Made by a program: the position numbers and the translations under genes. The notes below the pieces were generated by a model that was given only the letters and a program-made list of their open reading frames with translations, was not told the origin of the DNA and ran no database searches. From contig NZ_QAYG01000009.1 in NCBI RefSeq assembly GCF_003053845.1, positions 124,001 to 188,000 on the forward strand: a stretch of DNA of 64,000 nt, written 5' to 3'. The stretch's first letter is position 1. Every line of letters begins with the position of its first letter. This document shows, piece after piece, positions 22,534 to 57,010 of the stretch. This stretch comes from Breoghania corrubedonensis (lineage in GTDB: Bacteria; Pseudomonadota; Alphaproteobacteria; Rhizobiales; Stappiaceae).

Positions 22534-23116
22534 TCATCGCCTCGCCCCTCGCACAAGCCAACCGTGTGCGAATCCATGCCGCAGCCCATACGATCCCGGC
22601 CGGCACATCCATTCGTGACCGCCGCTGCGGCCGATCTCGTGACAAGTCCCCGCCTCCGTGCGCAAAACGGACGTGTAACCGCGATACCGAAGCGCTGTAA
22701 CGCCCCGCCCGGACACGCCTCGCGAGACCTGCGGACACAGACGTCCGCACCCGGTTTCGCGCAGTATTCAGCGGTTTTGCAGGCCCCGTTTCGGCAACGG
22801 CTCTTCTCTCAGCCGGGATAATATGGGATATCATGGGCGATCACGGGCGTCAATGGAACGGACATGGATGTTCAGGCTCGATCCCCCCGGACCAAGGCGA
22901 TTTAAACCTCATTAGGCTTAACGGCGCGTTGCCATCCCGGCCTCGCCGACGGGCCAGGCGGCTTGCGATAAATCATGGTTAACAAATGGTTTTCATCCAC
23001 CCGGCACAGGGCGCGCGAATGGTTCGGCGCGCGAGCCGCGCGCGCACGGCGCCGGTAACGGCGCGCTTGCGCCTGCGGCGGCGCGTCACAACCGGGTGTG
23101 GAAAAGGTGGAAAGGT
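22534..23116. other. Non-coding gap between rnpB and mraZ
   Basis: No gene is supported in these 583 bases. The part nearest mraZ forms a leader of about 290 nt. At 22814-22858 lies the decameric repeat array with an embedded promoter-like sequence. The stretch 22870-23116 is the region downstream of rnpB. It has several GCGC-rich inverted repeats, but no clean terminator with a T-run was found. Confidence 0.6.
22814..22858 (-). promoter_or_regulatory. Decameric repeat array and promoter of mraZ (putative MraZ operator)
   Basis: On the plus strand the pentamers CGGGA, TGGGA, TGGGC, CGGGC and TGGAA start at 22814, 22824, 22834, 22844 and 22854, exactly 10 nt apart. In E. coli MraZ binds TGGGN repeats separated by 5 nt in front of mraZ, the same period. 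On the minus strand a TTGACG (22848-22853) and TATCCC (22825-22830) spaced 17 nt apart lie inside the array and could be the -35 and -10 boxes, fitting autorepression. The repeat orientation relative to mraZ and the 290-nt distance are caveats. Confidence 0.6.
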
Positions 23117-23517
23117 GCCAGTCGGCCTGTAAGCCGGGTTCTGTTCGGCGGGCGAACCCGCCGCGACGACCATTCATCTGGGACGTCCGTTACCGGACGC
23201 CTCGCGCGACCTACCCGGACGGTCAACGTGAAAACACGCCTGGGAGTTGCCTCCCGCGCCGTCCCTATTCGGTCTTGCTCCCGGTGGGGTTTACCATGCC
23301 GGCCCCGTTGCCGGGACCGCGGTGGGCTCTTACCCCACCCTTTCACCCTTACCTGCGCGCCCCCTTGCGGGTTTTGAGCAGGCGGTTTGCTTTCTGCGGC
23401 ACTTTCCCTGAGGTCGCCCTCGCCGGGCGTTACCCGGCACCGTGTTTCCATGGAGCCCGGACTTTCCTCCCCCGCCGCCTTTCAGCGCTTGCGGGAGCGG
23501 TCGTCCAGCCGACTGGC
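23117..23517 (-). ncRNA. rnpB: RNase P RNA (class A)
   Basis: RNase P RNA is the catalytic subunit that matures tRNA 5' ends. Read on the minus strand, the terminal pairing GCCAGTCGG at the 5' end matches CCGACTGGC at the 3' end. Conserved core blocks follow: GAGGAAAGTCCGGGCTCCATG (CR-I) early, GAAAGTGCCGCAGAAAGCAAACC, the TAAGGGTGAAAGGGTGGGGTAAGAGCCC region, and near the 3' end GGCTTACAGGCC. The length of about 400 nt is normal for alphaproteobacteria. Ends are set by the P1 helix and are accurate to a few bases. Confidence 0.97.
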
Positions 23518-50880: not shown

Positions 50881-52332
50881 TCACCCTAAACGGTTACCGT
50901 GTGGAGCACGCGGGCAGCGTGGATCGGGGTAGAACGGCTTGTTCCAGCCGTAGCTTTTCAGCACGTCTCGCCAGCAGCGACCACGATTGGCATTGCATTC
51001 GGAGAAATACTCGCAATTGGCACAAGGCCCGTCCGGCACATCCGTCTGGATCGGATGCAACAGCCCTTCGGCGAGCGCGCTGTTCCACATTTCCATCACC
51101 GACTGCCGGCGCAAATCACCGATAATGAAGGCGGGATGATCGTAGAGTTCTTCGCAGACTGTAACGCGACCGTCCGGCAGCAGCACGAAGCTGTCGCGAT
51201 CTGCGGTGCAGAAGGCGCGCCGCGTCCATTCCAGTTCTCGTTGCTCCGGATCGCTCGCGGGCGCAAGCGCACCGCCACCAACGGAAATATCCATGTGCGG
51301 ATAGTCTTCCTGAAGCTCCAGTGCCATTCGTTCCACCTGAGCGATGTCCGCATCGGTGGCGAAAAGCGTATCCTTGTGGCGAAACAGCGATCTCCCGTAA
51401 GCGGAAAACTGCAGGCGGAACACGTTACCCATTTCGCCGGCGAAACGGATCAAATCCCGCGCAAGGGTCGCATTGTGAGGCGTCACGACCGTGTTGATGC
51501 GGACGCGAAGCCCTGCTTCTCTCAGATGATGCAGTGCCCGGAAGGCGCGGAGGTGGTAGTCCCTGACACCGACCATGTAGTCCATCGTTTCCGGATCGAC
51601 GCAGTCCAGGCTGAACTGCACGGTTTCCACGCCGATGTCGCGCAACATCCGCGCCTTGCGTGGTCCGAGGCCGATCTTGGTCGGAATGTCTGCCACCATC
51701 CCAGCTTCGTAGACAGAACGGATTATGCGAAAGATGCCCGGCCGGGCAAGAGCGTCGCCACCGGAAAACTGAAGCGACTCGACACCCAGCGACGCGAGTT
51801 CATGGACAATTTCCTCGACACGCTCCACCGGCAGCAGATTGGCCTCGCGGTCCTTGCGCACTTTAGCATAGCAATAGACACAATCCTGCGGGCAATAGAG
51901 CGTGGTCAGATAATAAACGTTGCAGGGAATGCGAAGCCGGCGCTCGGTCAGATTGACGGTGCGCGCATCCATGATGAAATCTGATGGCTCGTAGTCGACC
52001 GCATCGTCGATCGGTTCATCACTCAGACGAAAGATATCCTCCGCCTGGCGCTCGCCGGTGGTGTAGAAATCAAGGAGGGCCTGTACCTGTCCTGCCGCGT
52101 TGGGGCGGTCCGTGTCCGTGATGACGGCCCAGAGATCAATAACGTCAGCAACACGCCTGCGGCCGTTGAACAGACTGAGCACGATTGCCTCTCCCGGGGG
52201 CAGGCGGCGACAGATGTAGGAACGGTTCGTCAACGGTGAGGGTCTGGTGATCAGGACAGAGCGATCAATGTCGTTCTTCAGTCTCAGTCCCGTATGAAGC
52301 GCACCGAACCGACTTTCGGGTACCAGTTCCAT
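50881..52332 (-). CDS. Radical SAM/SPASM peptide maturase with PqqD-like N-terminal region
   Basis: The 483-residue enzyme has three parts. Residues 1-110 look like a PqqD-type RiPP recognition element, with a winged-helix-like core near YICRRLPPGEAIVLSLFNGRR. Residues about 135-340 form the radical SAM core with C147-X3-C151-X2-C154 and the QFSGGDALARPGI glycine motif. Residues 375-473 form a SPASM domain with Cys375, 393, 437, 440, 446, 453 and 473, expected to hold auxiliary iron-sulphur clusters. GGGAGA precedes ATG 52332 by 6-7 nt, so an upstream ATG at 52395 is rejected. A Cys-rich peptide gene lies 72 nt upstream. It probably forms thioether or other cross-links in that peptide. Confidence 0.85.
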   Translation of the reverse strand: MELVPESRFGALHTGLRLKNDIDRSVLITRPSPLTNRSYICRRLPPGEAIVLSLFNGRRRVADVIDLWAVITDTDRPNAAGQVQALLDFYTTGERQAEDIFRLSDEPIDDAVDYEPSDFIMDARTVNLTERRLRIPCNVYYLTTLYCPQDCVYCYAKVRKDREANLLPVERVEEIVHELASLGVESLQFSGGDALARPGIFRIIRSVYEAGMVADIPTKIGLGPRKARMLRDIGVETVQFSLDCVDPETMDYMVGVRDYHLRAFRALHHLREAGLRVRINTVVTPHNATLARDLIRFAGEMGNVFRLQFSAYGRSLFRHKDTLFATDADIAQVERMALELQEDYPHMDISVGGGALAPASDPEQRELEWTRRAFCTADRDSFVLLPDGRVTVCEELYDHPAFIIGDLRRQSVMEMWNSALAEGLLHPIQTDVPDGPCANCEYFSECNANRGRCWRDVLKSYGWNKPFYPDPRCPRAPHGNRLG

Positions 52333-52404
52333 CGGATTCTCCCATGCGGCAGGAAACGGATACTCCTGCACGTACCGAAGCACGCACAGGAGCATCCCGC
52401 ATCG

Positions 52405-52575
52405 TTACTGTGCGAGACGGTTCGCCGTTCCCGACGAGCAGCACGCGGCACAGCCCGACCAGCAGGCCTCGTTACAGGTACGCAGCGCGCCATCGATGAA
52501 CCGGTCGATGAGCAGTTCATCGATCTTGGCTTCCTTAAGTGCGATCTTTAATGAATCAAGCTGCTTCTTATCCAT
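52405..52575 (-). CDS. Small Cys-rich RiPP precursor peptide
   Basis: The 56-residue peptide starts at ATG 52575, 7-8 nt after AAGGA. A separate in-frame extension to 52632 has no such site. Residues 1-33 form a charged, helical leader-like part (DKKQLDSLKIALKEAKIDEL onward). The C-terminal core has five cysteines at 34, 38, 42, 45 and 46 (C-X3-C-X3-C-X2-C-C), then SSGTANRLAQ. The spacing resembles sactipeptides such as thuricin CD (CX3CX3C) and the Cys-rich loop of thurincin H. It precedes the radical SAM/SPASM gene and is its natural substrate. I do not recognise the family. Confidence 0.75.
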   Translation of the reverse strand: MDKKQLDSLKIALKEAKIDELLIDRFIDGALRTCNEACWSGCAACCSSGTANRLAQ

Positions 52576-52782
52576 GACATTATCCTTACCTAGGGTAATA
52601 TACAGAAAAAATATAATATGAACGCAGCTCAATCGTTATTGATTCAGATCATTGCAAAATAAAAACTACGCCATCTCGGATATATTTACGTTCTGTTGCG
52701 TCAGGCGGCTGCGTCCGAGCGGTCATCGTACTGGTTTCGCTACGGCCATTCACGTCGGACAAGCCGCCACCGCCAGGCCCGC
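52576..52782 (-). promoter_or_regulatory. AT-rich upstream region of the peptide-radical SAM operon
   Basis: The stretch 52590-52680 is far richer in A/T than the rest of the window and would carry the promoter of the peptide gene. A short palindrome TTACC-TAG-GGTAA (52586-52598) overlaps the leader just before the ribosome-binding site and could act as an operator. No gene is seen. Confidence 0.5.
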
Positions 52783-53448: not shown

Positions 53449-55224
53449 ATGTGCGGACTTTGCGGCGAGATGAACTTCGACGGTGCCCCGGCATCCGCGT
53501 CCCGTGTGGAACGCATGACCGACGCCATGGCCCCACGCGGGCCGAACGGCGCAGGCATCGTGACGCGCGGGCCCGTGGGGCTCGGCCACCGCCGGCTGAA
53601 GATCATCGACCTGTCGGAAAAGGCGGCCCAGCCCTTCGTCGATACCGGTCTCGGCCTGACCATCGCCTTCAACGGCTGCATCTACAATTACGAGGAGCTG
53701 CGCCGCGACCTGCAGGCCAGGGGCCACGTCTTCGCCTCCACCGGCGACACGGAGGTCATCCTCAAGGCCTGGGCCGAATGGGGCGCGGACGCGATCCGCA
53801 AGCTGCACGGCATGTTCGCCTTCGCCATCCACGAGCGCGACAGCGGCCGGGTGATCCTGGTGCGCGACCGCTTCGGCATCAAGCCGCTTTATCTGGCGGA
53901 GACGGCCAAGAGCCTGCGGTTTGCCTCCACGCTCCCTGCCCTGCTGGCGGCCGGTGATGTGGAAACTGACATCGATCCCGTCGCGCTGCACCACTACATG
54001 ACATGGCACGCCGTGGTGCCCGCGCCGCGCACGATCCTGAAGGGCGTGCGCAAGCTGCCAGCGGCCACCATCCGCGTGATCGAGCCGGATGGATCGCACT
54101 CGGACACCACCTACTGGAAGCCGGTGTTCGAACGCTCCGAGGAGGACATGCGCCGCTCCGCCGAGGACTGGCGCGACATGGTGCTCGACGCGCTGCGCCT
54201 TTCCGTCGACCGCCGCATGGTCGCCGACGTGCCGGTCGGCGTGCTTTTGTCGGGCGGCGTGGACTCATCCATGATCGTCGGCCTGCTGGCGGAGGCCGGT
54301 CAGAAGGGGCTCACCACCTTCTCCATCGGCTTTGAGGAGGCGCACGGCGAAAAGGGCGACGAGTTCGTCTATTCCGACCTCATCGCCAAGCACTTCGGCA
54401 CCAAGCACAACAAGATCTTCATCAAGTCCTCGGAGATGATGGAGAACCTGCCCCATGCCATCGCCGCGATGTCGGAGCCGATGGTGTCTTACGACAATAT
54501 CGGCTTCTTCCTGCTCTCGCGCGAGGTCTCCAGGCACATCAAGGTGGTGCAGTCGGGCCAGGGCGCGGACGAGGTTTTCGGCGGCTATCACTGGTATCCG
54601 CCAATGCAGGGGGCGGCCGATCCGGTCTCGGCCTACCGCGACGCGTTCTTCGACCGCACGCACGAGCAGCTCGCCACCCACCTGCAGCCGCACGCGATGG
54701 CCAACCGCGACGAGAGCCTCGCCTTCGTGGAGGCGCATTTCGCACAAGCGGGCGCGGACGATCCGGTCGACAAGGCGCTGAGGCTCGACACCAACGTCAT
54801 GCTGGTGGACGATCCGGTCAAGCGCGTCGACAACATGACCATGGCCTGGGGGCTGGAGGCGCGCGTGCCCTTCCTCGACCACGAACTGGTGGAGCTTGCC
54901 GGCCGCATTCCGGCGCAATTCAAGCTCGACCAGGGCGGCAAGGGGGTGCTGAAGGAAGCCGCGCGCAAGGTGGTACCCGCCGACGTCATCGACCGGCCGA
55001 AGGGCTATTTCCCCGTTCCGGCGCTGAAATACATCCAGGGGCCCTATCTCGACATGGTGCGCGACGCGCTCACCAACGACAAGGCGCGCGCGCGAGGACT
55101 GTTCCGGCAGAGCTATCTGGACGCGCTCTTCGCCAACCCCACGGAGCACATCACCAGGCTTCGCGGATCGGAATTGTGGCAGGTGGCCATTCTGGAGATG
55201 TGGCTGCAATCGCAGGGGGTTTGA
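53449..55224 (+). CDS. N-acetylglutaminylglutamine amidotransferase (asparagine synthetase-like)
   Basis: This AsnB-like enzyme amidates N-acetylglutaminylglutamine to the compatible solute NAGGN. The 591 residues begin with the glutaminase nucleophile Cys2 (MCGLCGEMNF), followed by RGPNGAGI and GLGHRRLKIIDLS. The synthetase domain has the PP-loop LLSGGVDSSMIVGLL near residue 265, and GQGADEVFGGYHWYP. A synthetase gene follows after 4 nt, and this pair is the known NAGGN system. No transmembrane segments; cytosolic. Confidence 0.93.
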   Translation: MCGLCGEMNFDGAPASASRVERMTDAMAPRGPNGAGIVTRGPVGLGHRRLKIIDLSEKAAQPFVDTGLGLTIAFNGCIYNYEELRRDLQARGHVFASTGDTEVILKAWAEWGADAIRKLHGMFAFAIHERDSGRVILVRDRFGIKPLYLAETAKSLRFASTLPALLAAGDVETDIDPVALHHYMTWHAVVPAPRTILKGVRKLPAATIRVIEPDGSHSDTTYWKPVFERSEEDMRRSAEDWRDMVLDALRLSVDRRMVADVPVGVLLSGGVDSSMIVGLLAEAGQKGLTTFSIGFEEAHGEKGDEFVYSDLIAKHFGTKHNKIFIKSSEMMENLPHAIAAMSEPMVSYDNIGFFLLSREVSRHIKVVQSGQGADEVFGGYHWYPPMQGAADPVSAYRDAFFDRTHEQLATHLQPHAMANRDESLAFVEAHFAQAGADDPVDKALRLDTNVMLVDDPVKRVDNMTMAWGLEARVPFLDHELVELAGRIPAQFKLDQGGKGVLKEAARKVVPADVIDRPKGYFPVPALKYIQGPYLDMVRDALTNDKARARGLFRQSYLDALFANPTEHITRLRGSELWQVAILEMWLQSQGV

Positions 55225-55228
55225 GAGC

Positions 55229-57010
55229 ATGAGCGAGCAGGAGAAATCGCGGCGCCGGGCCAAGGCGTCGTACGATCACCGGCTGCGCCGCATGCGCGAC
55301 CAGGGGCTGAAACCACCGCTGGAGACGACCGAAACGCGCAAGAACGCCTCCATCGATTGCGGCTGGGGGCGGCTGATCTTCGCCGAGACCTTCGAGGACC
55401 CGCAGCAGCTTGCCGCCACCTTGCGCGAGGAAGGCCCGGACCGGCGCGACATCGCCTTTTACGTGCGCGATCCGCATGTGCTCTTGTCGTGCGCGCCGCA
55501 GGAGCTGTTTCTCGATCCCTCCCACACCTACCGCGTCAACCTCGCCACCTATCGCCCGGCCCGGCGCGGCCACAAGGGCTTCCACGTCCGCCGGCTGGCG
55601 ACCGAGGCCGACGCCCAGGCCGTCAATGTCATCTACCAGACGCGCGGCATGGTGACCGTGCCGCCGGAGTTCTTCTGGTCGAAGCGTTCGGCCCAGGCCA
55701 TCACCGTGCTGGTGGCGGAGGATGCGGAAACCGACGAGATCATCGGCACGGTCTATGGCATCGACCACCGCCACGCCTTCGGCGATCCGACCAACGGCTC
55801 CTCGCTGTGGTGCCTGGCGGTGGCCCCGCAGGCACGCCACGGCGGCATTGGCGAGGTGCTGGTGCGTCACCTGATCGAGCAGTTCCAGGCCCGCGGCTGC
55901 GCGTTCCTCGATCTCTCGGTCATGCACGACAACGAACAGGCCATCGCGCTTTACGAAAAGCTCGGCTTCGAGCGCGTGCCCTTCTTCACCGTCAAGCGCA
56001 AGAACCCGATCAACGAGAAGTTCTACGCAGGCCCCGCCACAGACGAGAAACTGAATCCCTACGGTCAGATCATCGTCAACGAGGCGCGCCGGCGCGGCAT
56101 CCACGTGGAGGTGACCGACGCGGAGGGCGGCTTCTTCCGCCTGACCTATGGAGGCCGCTCGGTCCATTGTCGGGAATCGCTGTCGGAATTCACCTCGGGC
56201 GTCGCCGTCTCCATCTGCGATGACAAGGCCGTCACCCGCCGCGTGGTGGAAAGGGCCGGCGTTCAGGTGCCCGCGCAATTCGAGATCGGCGCTGACAACG
56301 ACGTGAAACCGGCGGGCGACTTCCTGAAGGAGCACGGCTCCGTCGTGGTGAAGCCGGCGCGTGGCGAACAGGGGCGTGGCGTCGCCATCGACCTGACCAC
56401 CATGGACGAGGTCGCGGCCGCGATCGAGGCGGCGCGCAAGATCTGCGACCGGGTGATCCTGGAGGAATGCGTCGAAGGCAGCGACCTGCGCCTCGTCGTC
56501 ATCGATTACCGCGTGGTCGCCGCCGCCATGCGCCGGCCGCCGCTGGTCGTCGGCGACGGCCATGCCACCATCGCGGAACTGATCGCCACGCAGAGCCGGC
56601 GCCGGCAGTCCGCGACAGGGGGGGAATCCTCCATTCCCGTGGACGAGGAAACCGAACGCTGCCTCGCCGCCGCCGGCCATGCGCTGGACGAGGTGCTGGC
56701 GGAAGGCAGGGAAGTGATCGTGCGCCGCTCCGCCAACCTGCACACCGGCGGCACCATCCACGACGTGACCGGCGAGGTACACCCCGTTCTGATCGAAGCG
56801 GCCATCAAGGCGGCGCGGGCCATCGAGATCCCGGTAACGGGCATCGATTTGATGGTGAAAAGCCCGCGCCTGCCCGAGTATCGTTTCATCGAGGCGAACG
56901 AGCGGCCGGGGCTCGCCAATCACGAGCCGCAGCCCACGGCGGAACGCTTCGTCGACCTCTTGTTCCCGCTGTCGATCCCGCAGGCAAGCCGCGAGGCGCG
57001 AAGGAAGTAG
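55229..57010 (+). CDS. ngg: N-acetylglutaminylglutamine synthetase (GNAT plus ATP-grasp)
   Basis: The enzyme makes N-acetylglutaminylglutamine from glutamine units and acetyl-CoA. The 593-residue protein fuses an N-terminal GNAT acetyltransferase (about 115-260, with WCLAVAPQARHGGIGEVLV and DLSVMHDNEQAIALYEKLGFE) to a C-terminal ATP-grasp ligase. The ligase shows VVKPARGEQGRGVAIDL, VTGIDLMVKS and FIEANERPGLANHEP, and resembles the cyanophycin synthetase/glutathione ligase fold. It starts 4 nt after the amidotransferase stop, showing an operon. Confidence 0.92.
   Translation: MSEQEKSRRRAKASYDHRLRRMRDQGLKPPLETTETRKNASIDCGWGRLIFAETFEDPQQLAATLREEGPDRRDIAFYVRDPHVLLSCAPQELFLDPSHTYRVNLATYRPARRGHKGFHVRRLATEADAQAVNVIYQTRGMVTVPPEFFWSKRSAQAITVLVAEDAETDEIIGTVYGIDHRHAFGDPTNGSSLWCLAVAPQARHGGIGEVLVRHLIEQFQARGCAFLDLSVMHDNEQAIALYEKLGFERVPFFTVKRKNPINEKFYAGPATDEKLNPYGQIIVNEARRRGIHVEVTDAEGGFFRLTYGGRSVHCRESLSEFTSGVAVSICDDKAVTRRVVERAGVQVPAQFEIGADNDVKPAGDFLKEHGSVVVKPARGEQGRGVAIDLTTMDEVAAAIEAARKICDRVILEECVEGSDLRLVVIDYRVVAAAMRRPPLVVGDGHATIAELIATQSRRRQSATGGESSIPVDEETERCLAAAGHALDEVLAEGREVIVRRSANLHTGGTIHDVTGEVHPVLIEAAIKAARAIEIPVTGIDLMVKSPRLPEYRFIEANERPGLANHEPQPTAERFVDLLFPLSIPQASREARRK

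Follow-up and report, generated by a model that had tools for sequence, protein, structure and literature searches.

Characterized peptides made by radical SAM enzymes are mostly exported antibiotics or cofactors. In the sactipeptide and ranthipeptide systems of SkfB, CteB, PapB, and Tte1186, the maturase combines a RiPP recognition element (RRE), a radical SAM domain, and a C-terminal Fe-S domain in one chain, and a small Cys-containing precursor adjoins it; on the same fold, SuiB and PqqE make C-C links and EpeE makes epimers. In CteB, a peptide Cys has been located at the auxiliary cluster (PMC8326336). The gene pair described here, from a 64,000-nucleotide stretch of the Breoghania corrubedonensis genome (hereafter the window, to which all coordinates refer), has this same arrangement of domains and genes. 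It genuinely belongs to the radical SAM RiPPs, although no curated model covers its family, and the 56-aa peptide is almost certainly modified by the enzyme encoded in the same operon.

Precursor gene and maturase

The precursor gene (52405..52575, minus strand, stop included) starts at the ATG at 52575, is preceded by the ribosome-binding site AAGGA (52583..52587, minus strand), and encodes in 56 codons the peptide MDKKQLDSLKIALKEAKIDELLIDRFIDGALRTCNEACWSGCAACCSSGTANRLAQ. Residues 1–33 make up a charged leader with no GG cleavage motif. The core segment C34–Q56, delimited by precursor alignment (CNEACWSGCAACCSSGTANRLAQ; 52408..52476, minus strand), contains C34, C38, C42, C45, and C46 in the spacing C-X3-C-X3-C-X2-C-C, together with one Trp and no Tyr. 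A gap of 72 nt separates the precursor stop from the maturase ATG (52332), both genes lying on the minus strand. The peptide matched no NCBIfam or Pfam model (no family at E ≤ 1), a search for a second copy in the window's genome returned insignificant matches only, and tblastn of plasmids with the peptide gave no match. The gene call rests on the reading frame and on selection relative to the Afifella pfennigii ortholog, which aligns across all 56 residues with 42 identical (22 of 24 in the core). The precursor has a pS of 0.83 (synonymous sites saturated) and a pN of 0.19, compared to 0.63 and 0.17 for the maturase; because pS is saturated against so low a pN, we conclude that the precursor is a real gene under purifying selection.

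The maturase gene (50881..52332, minus strand) encodes a radical SAM/SPASM protein of 483 aa, assigned by matches over cut-off to PF04055 and PF13186 and by its structural model. Its start was set at ATG 52332 because homologs agree on it, a longer frame to 52395 being possible. The radical SAM cluster motif C147-X3-C151-X2-C154 (51871..51894, minus strand) is invariant in 50 homologs, and the SPASM domain (50914..51210, minus strand; PF13186 and alignment) contributes C375, C393, C437, C440, C446, C453, and C473. Nine of these ten cysteines are invariant in the 50-homolog alignment and C440 is conserved in at least 90%; no other conserved Cys was found there. Two auxiliary clusters are expected for the SPASM domain and, as seven cysteines serve eight positions, one of them should have an open site. 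The full-length model (pLDDT 92, pTM 0.91) placed SuiB and SkfB first in Foldseek, with PqqE among the nearest folds, and VIA gave Z 27.6 for SkfB (3.5 Å over 359 residues, RRE included) and Z ~26 for SuiB. A family-profile search of the PDB also returned SkfB as the best match (1.6e-22), then SuiB, PqqE, and CteB.

The N-terminal domain of the enzyme (residues 3–112; 51997..52326, minus strand) was modeled as a PqqD-like winged helix. Folded alone, the N-terminal 110 residues reached a pLDDT of 91; the best Foldseek matches were leader-bound lasso-peptide B1 RREs and PqqD, and VIA scored the domain at Z 9.0–9.6 against RREs across 83–88 residues. Since the winged-helix part of the non-RiPP protein Rv2067c (8hkr) scored slightly higher, at Z 10.6, the fold alone is no proof of an RRE; the Foldseek ranking, the position in the enzyme, and the family context together confirm the modeled domain as one.

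The first-pass annotation, made from the letters of the window, had placed both genes correctly, with their coordinates, motif, and 72-nt spacing. The AAGGA site that it saw ahead of the 56-codon gene lies at 52583–52587, its C-X3-C-X3-C-X2-C-C core runs from C34 to C46, and the CX3CX2C motif and SPASM domain that it named are borne out by the two Pfam matches and the conserved cysteines. Its PqqD-like N-terminus had been a guess, confirmed by domain modeling, Foldseek, and VIA, and the winged-helix RRE that it expected of a fold model of this region was indeed obtained. Its RiPP interpretation of the gene pair is supported.

Core pattern, distribution, and genomic slot

Sixteen precursors align on C-x2-4-C-x3-C-x2-3-C, most of them ending with a further C-x2-G. 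Four Cys columns are invariant across the precursors of the window, Afifella, Paenibacillus, Methanothrix, Delta3, and Aminicenantes, and C46 with the following SSG in the window precursor matches the C-x2-G end of the family with three residues missing. When a profile built from Paenibacillus precursors only was run over 4147 small ORFs of the loci, the next matches were other maturase-adjacent precursors, and the Afifella precursor scored weakly (HMM E ~0.04). The leader sequence link between the window precursor and the others is weak, and the core pattern is their only common feature. Directly upstream of homologous maturases, 39/185 small ORFs bear the motif, against 30/4425 elsewhere (odds ratio 39, Fisher p = 6.6e-38), in loci that are related and not fully independent; about half of the matches elsewhere are further precursors within the same loci. 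The partnership of precursor and maturase thus recurs beyond the window: the Cys pattern, which the first-pass annotation had proposed to look for beside the maturase in other genomes, is kept there in several phyla, one archaeal MAG included.

Several loci show variant arrangements. MAG and isolate loci with the same maturase family (L083, L085, L031, L057, and L071) have at least two tandem Cys-x3-Cys precursors. Rhizobial plasmids and a Desulfovibrio MAG (L007:5628-8863, L008:5659-8881, L005, and L081) have a common precursor ending GC(D/T)(S/G)CT(V/I)CPCMICW, and in the rhizobial case the maturase has another radical SAM enzyme next to it. At a second locus of Afifella pfennigii (L098:6449-8230), a distant maturase (31% identity) is preceded by a 102-aa peptide with the Cys-rich repeats GGGDCEDNSC, GGGDCGNESC, and GGTCGSNVC. 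On the Paenibacillus peoriae plasmid NZ_CP011513.1 (L006:7532-9418), the maturase copy appears in the record as two separate frames, whereas related genomes have it intact.

The closest relative of the maturase is that of Afifella pfennigii, at 77% identity. Among 200 relatives searched, the sole match outside its own genome was a distant rhizobial one (29%), and 385 Alphaproteobacteria yielded no further match at E ≤ 1e-45. The pair is carried by 7 of the 100 genomes in the Paenibacillus set, those read having two tandem precursors before one maturase, and also occurs in an archaeal Methanothrix MAG, the MAG of an Olavius deltaproteobacterial symbiont, and Aminicenantes MAGs; no relative was found in viral contigs. 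In a tree, the window groups with Afifella (100/100). The Methanothrix copy clusters with Paenibacillus (100/99), a placement that suggests transfer across distant lineages, although the MAG contig could be misbinned.

An ArsC-family gene lies downstream of the window pair and a MarR regulator gene upstream; further out, one flank has a HupE/UreJ gene and the opposite flank an asparagine-synthase/ATP-grasp pair. These flanking genes are unrelated to the pair. Within the genus, the marR-arsC slot holds a putative sulfotransferase-like ORF (read from sequence) in one genome and ~8.7 kb of different genes in another, and because of this variation we regard the pair as an accessory cassette. The region 53449-57010, with asparagine-synthase-like and GNAT/ATP-grasp genes and then a peptidase gene, looks like an N-acetylglutaminylglutamine amide (osmolyte) operon. 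The sole Rfam match in the window is a class A RNase P RNA (23114-23516, minus strand).

Probable oxygen-type control, export, and proposed mode of action

A putative FNR/FixK-type box, ATGATCTGAATCAA (52639..52652, minus strand), matches the consensus TTGATN4ATCAA with one mismatch, its center lying 70.5 nt ahead of the precursor start codon; Afifella has a perfect box at the equivalent position, ~66 nt upstream of the precursor start. By chance, ~0.76 one-mismatch boxes are expected in the entire 64-kb window. Perfect boxes are rare, at five per genome in the window's genome and in Afifella, and the reversed control gave none. Among the genes that follow other boxes are those for a cytochrome c peroxidase, for Crp/FNR-family regulators, and for an MFS transporter (NarK-like by reading), as well as an operon with a 4Fe-4S protein beside a hydrogenase-4-like membrane subunit; the cytochrome c peroxidase, Crp/FNR regulator, and 4Fe-4S/hydrogenase-4-like genes are of the anaerobiosis type. 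Ahead of the Paenibacillus precursors, pattern search found no FNR/CRP-like site; a different conserved promoter-like block is present there. In Afifella, nirK is 2.5 kb away from the cassette, and an FGE-type protein and nnrS are nearby. As NirK has no match in the window's genome, the box is common to the two genomes and the neighborhood is not, and denitrification was rejected as a common context. From the putative box, we infer that the operon may be under low-oxygen control.

We think it likely that the pair is a minimal RiPP operon, expressed anaerobically, whose peptide carries intramolecular thioethers and acts in the producer cell or leaves it by an unlinked route. Going by the conserved box, an FNR/FixK/DNR-type regulator would switch the operon on at low oxygen, and the helical, charged leader of the 56-aa precursor would dock on the maturase's own N-terminal RRE. 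The radical SAM cluster would then generate a 5′-deoxyadenosyl radical that abstracts hydrogen from core residues, and core Cys thiolates held at the open site of the SPASM auxiliary cluster would attack, forming intramolecular thioethers at a cost of 2 Da each. This scheme is drawn by analogy from SkfB and CteB; the cross-linking of the cysteines and its partner residues are putative. The product would be a small cross-linked Cys-x3-Cys peptide.

An exported bacteriocin-type sactipeptide or ranthipeptide, with its exporter and leader peptidase encoded elsewhere in the genome, seems to us unlikely. The argument for it comes from mostly Bacteroidota relatives that share this core pattern, where 16 of 51 neighbors are C39 peptidase-ABC exporters and 18 of 51 are outer-membrane barrels, a context that agrees with Bacteroidales RiPP loci as reported (PMC10352776) and indicates that the family product is exported there. 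The neighborhoods of the window clade, however, have no C39 exporter or outer-membrane barrel family and no neighbor family common to different lineages, no immunity gene candidate lies beside the window pair, and the C39 domain is absent from the window's genome, Afifella, and Paenibacillus rhizophilus. As the pair lacks a GG motif and an adjoining gene for an exporter, a leader peptidase, or immunity, and the genome lacks a C39 domain, action in the producing cell, or exit by an unlinked route, is probable. The first-pass annotation had reported no adjacent transporter or protease, to which we add the genome-wide absence of the C39 peptidase domain; its description of an unusually small system suits the window clade, but the family at large includes complete export loci in Bacteroidota.

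We give little credence to a metal- or redox-active product, serving anaerobic or denitrifying growth, whose cysteines stay mainly free or become only partly cross-linked, with the maturase setting their spacing by one or two links. The C-x2/3-C-x3-C-x2-C core, the oxygen-type box, and the nirK/nnrS neighborhood in Afifella would suit it, but that neighborhood is not common to the window's genome, and metal binding is putative. It is quite improbable that the maturase performs other chemistry on the peptide, be it a C-C link, as SuiB and PqqE do, or epimerization, as EpeE does. Although both SuiB and PqqE rank with the closest folds, conserved Cys form the framework of the core, which has one Trp and no Tyr, it lacks a Glu/Tyr pair such as PqqA has, and no conserved Cys beyond the ten cluster ligands is available as the hydrogen donor of an epimerase. 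A spurious small ORF, with some other substrate for the enzyme, is scarcely credible: no family model matches the ORF, but its saturated synonymous against few non-synonymous changes, its conserved core, and the upstream motif enrichment speak for a gene, and selection and synteny led us to rule this reading out.

The intramolecular-thioether operon is our preferred reading, and the window branch is unusual in being exporter-free and probably oxygen-controlled. More tentatively, we may be seeing an uncatalogued, widespread Cys-x3-Cys family with a branch that lost or never had export, maintained as a two-gene oxygen-controlled cassette for an intracellular cross-linked peptide with, for example, a role related to redox, metals, or nitric oxide in anaerobic respiration. 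The two genes form a unit complete in itself, in which substrate and enzyme are clearly linked, and which is found in bacteria and one archaeal MAG. At two genes and 2 kb, it offers a simple test bed for the roles of unexported cross-linked peptides, and its defined core pattern provides a means to find more of them.

Relation to described peptide families

The features by which RiPP precursor/maturase pairs are recognized are present here, namely a radical SAM and SPASM enzyme, an RRE, and a conserved adjacent precursor with a conserved core. Among their products, sactipeptides have the Cys sulfur bonded to an alpha-carbon, and ranthipeptides have it bonded to a beta- or gamma-carbon. No NCBIfam family reached its cut-off with the maturase among the best 25 of 56 matches listed; the PqqE model gave 86.3 bits (cut-off 381) and the mycofactocin maturase model 69.2 bits (cut-off 265), and membership of the PQQ or mycofactocin pathways was rejected on these scores. 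SkfB, the nearest solved structure by profile and fold, is ~18% identical to the window maturase. Kinship with SacP23 was weighed, this being another Cys-rich peptide from Paenibacillus. The SacP23 cluster of Paenibacillus polymyxa comprises a TIGR04068 maturase, TIGR04066 and TIGR04069 partners, an ABC transporter, and a protease (PMC10731318), whereas the window pair has neither transporter nor protease genes, and the kinship was rejected on this difference in make-up.

The GG-leader Bacteroidales RiPPs (TIGR04149) have Cys-x3-Cys cores and a maturase homologous to that of the window over most of its length (24–30% identity), and some family precursors score weakly, below cut-off, with the GG-Bacteroidales model. 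These systems use C39-ABC exporters, whereas the window has no GG motif, C39 exporter, or outer-membrane partner; membership was rejected because the leader has no GG and the genome no C39 domain. The CXXX-repeat peptides (TIGR04114, TIGR04117, and TIGR04118; maturase TIGR04115) resemble the window family in their C-x3-C cores, and TIGR04117/TIGR04118 give weak scores, below cut-off, for the precursors from Paenibacillus and Aminicenantes. When the window's genome was searched with TIGR04115 (cut-off 350 bits), the window maturase gave no match at E ≤ 0.001, on which ground membership was rejected. Elsewhere in this genome, a QhpD-like radical SAM protein beside a quinohemoprotein amine dehydrogenase gamma subunit (L121, C7:56822-57814) reaches 102 bits against the model for CXXX maturases, which is less than the cut-off.

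SCIFF peptides (TIGR03973) share with the window precursor a short Cys-rich core with C-x3-C steps. They have six cysteines, whereas the window precursor has five in another spacing and no TIGR03973 match; one Bacteroidota relative scores weakly with that model, below cut-off. The SCIFF-type maturase model is not among the best 25 of 56 NCBIfam matches listed for the window maturase, and in the profile search CteB matched distantly (1e-8). SCIFF peptides are widespread in Clostridia, a spread taken in a review as an argument against an antimicrobial role (PMC8326336). For a peptide with a role other than that of an antibiotic, SCIFF peptides are the nearest precedent.
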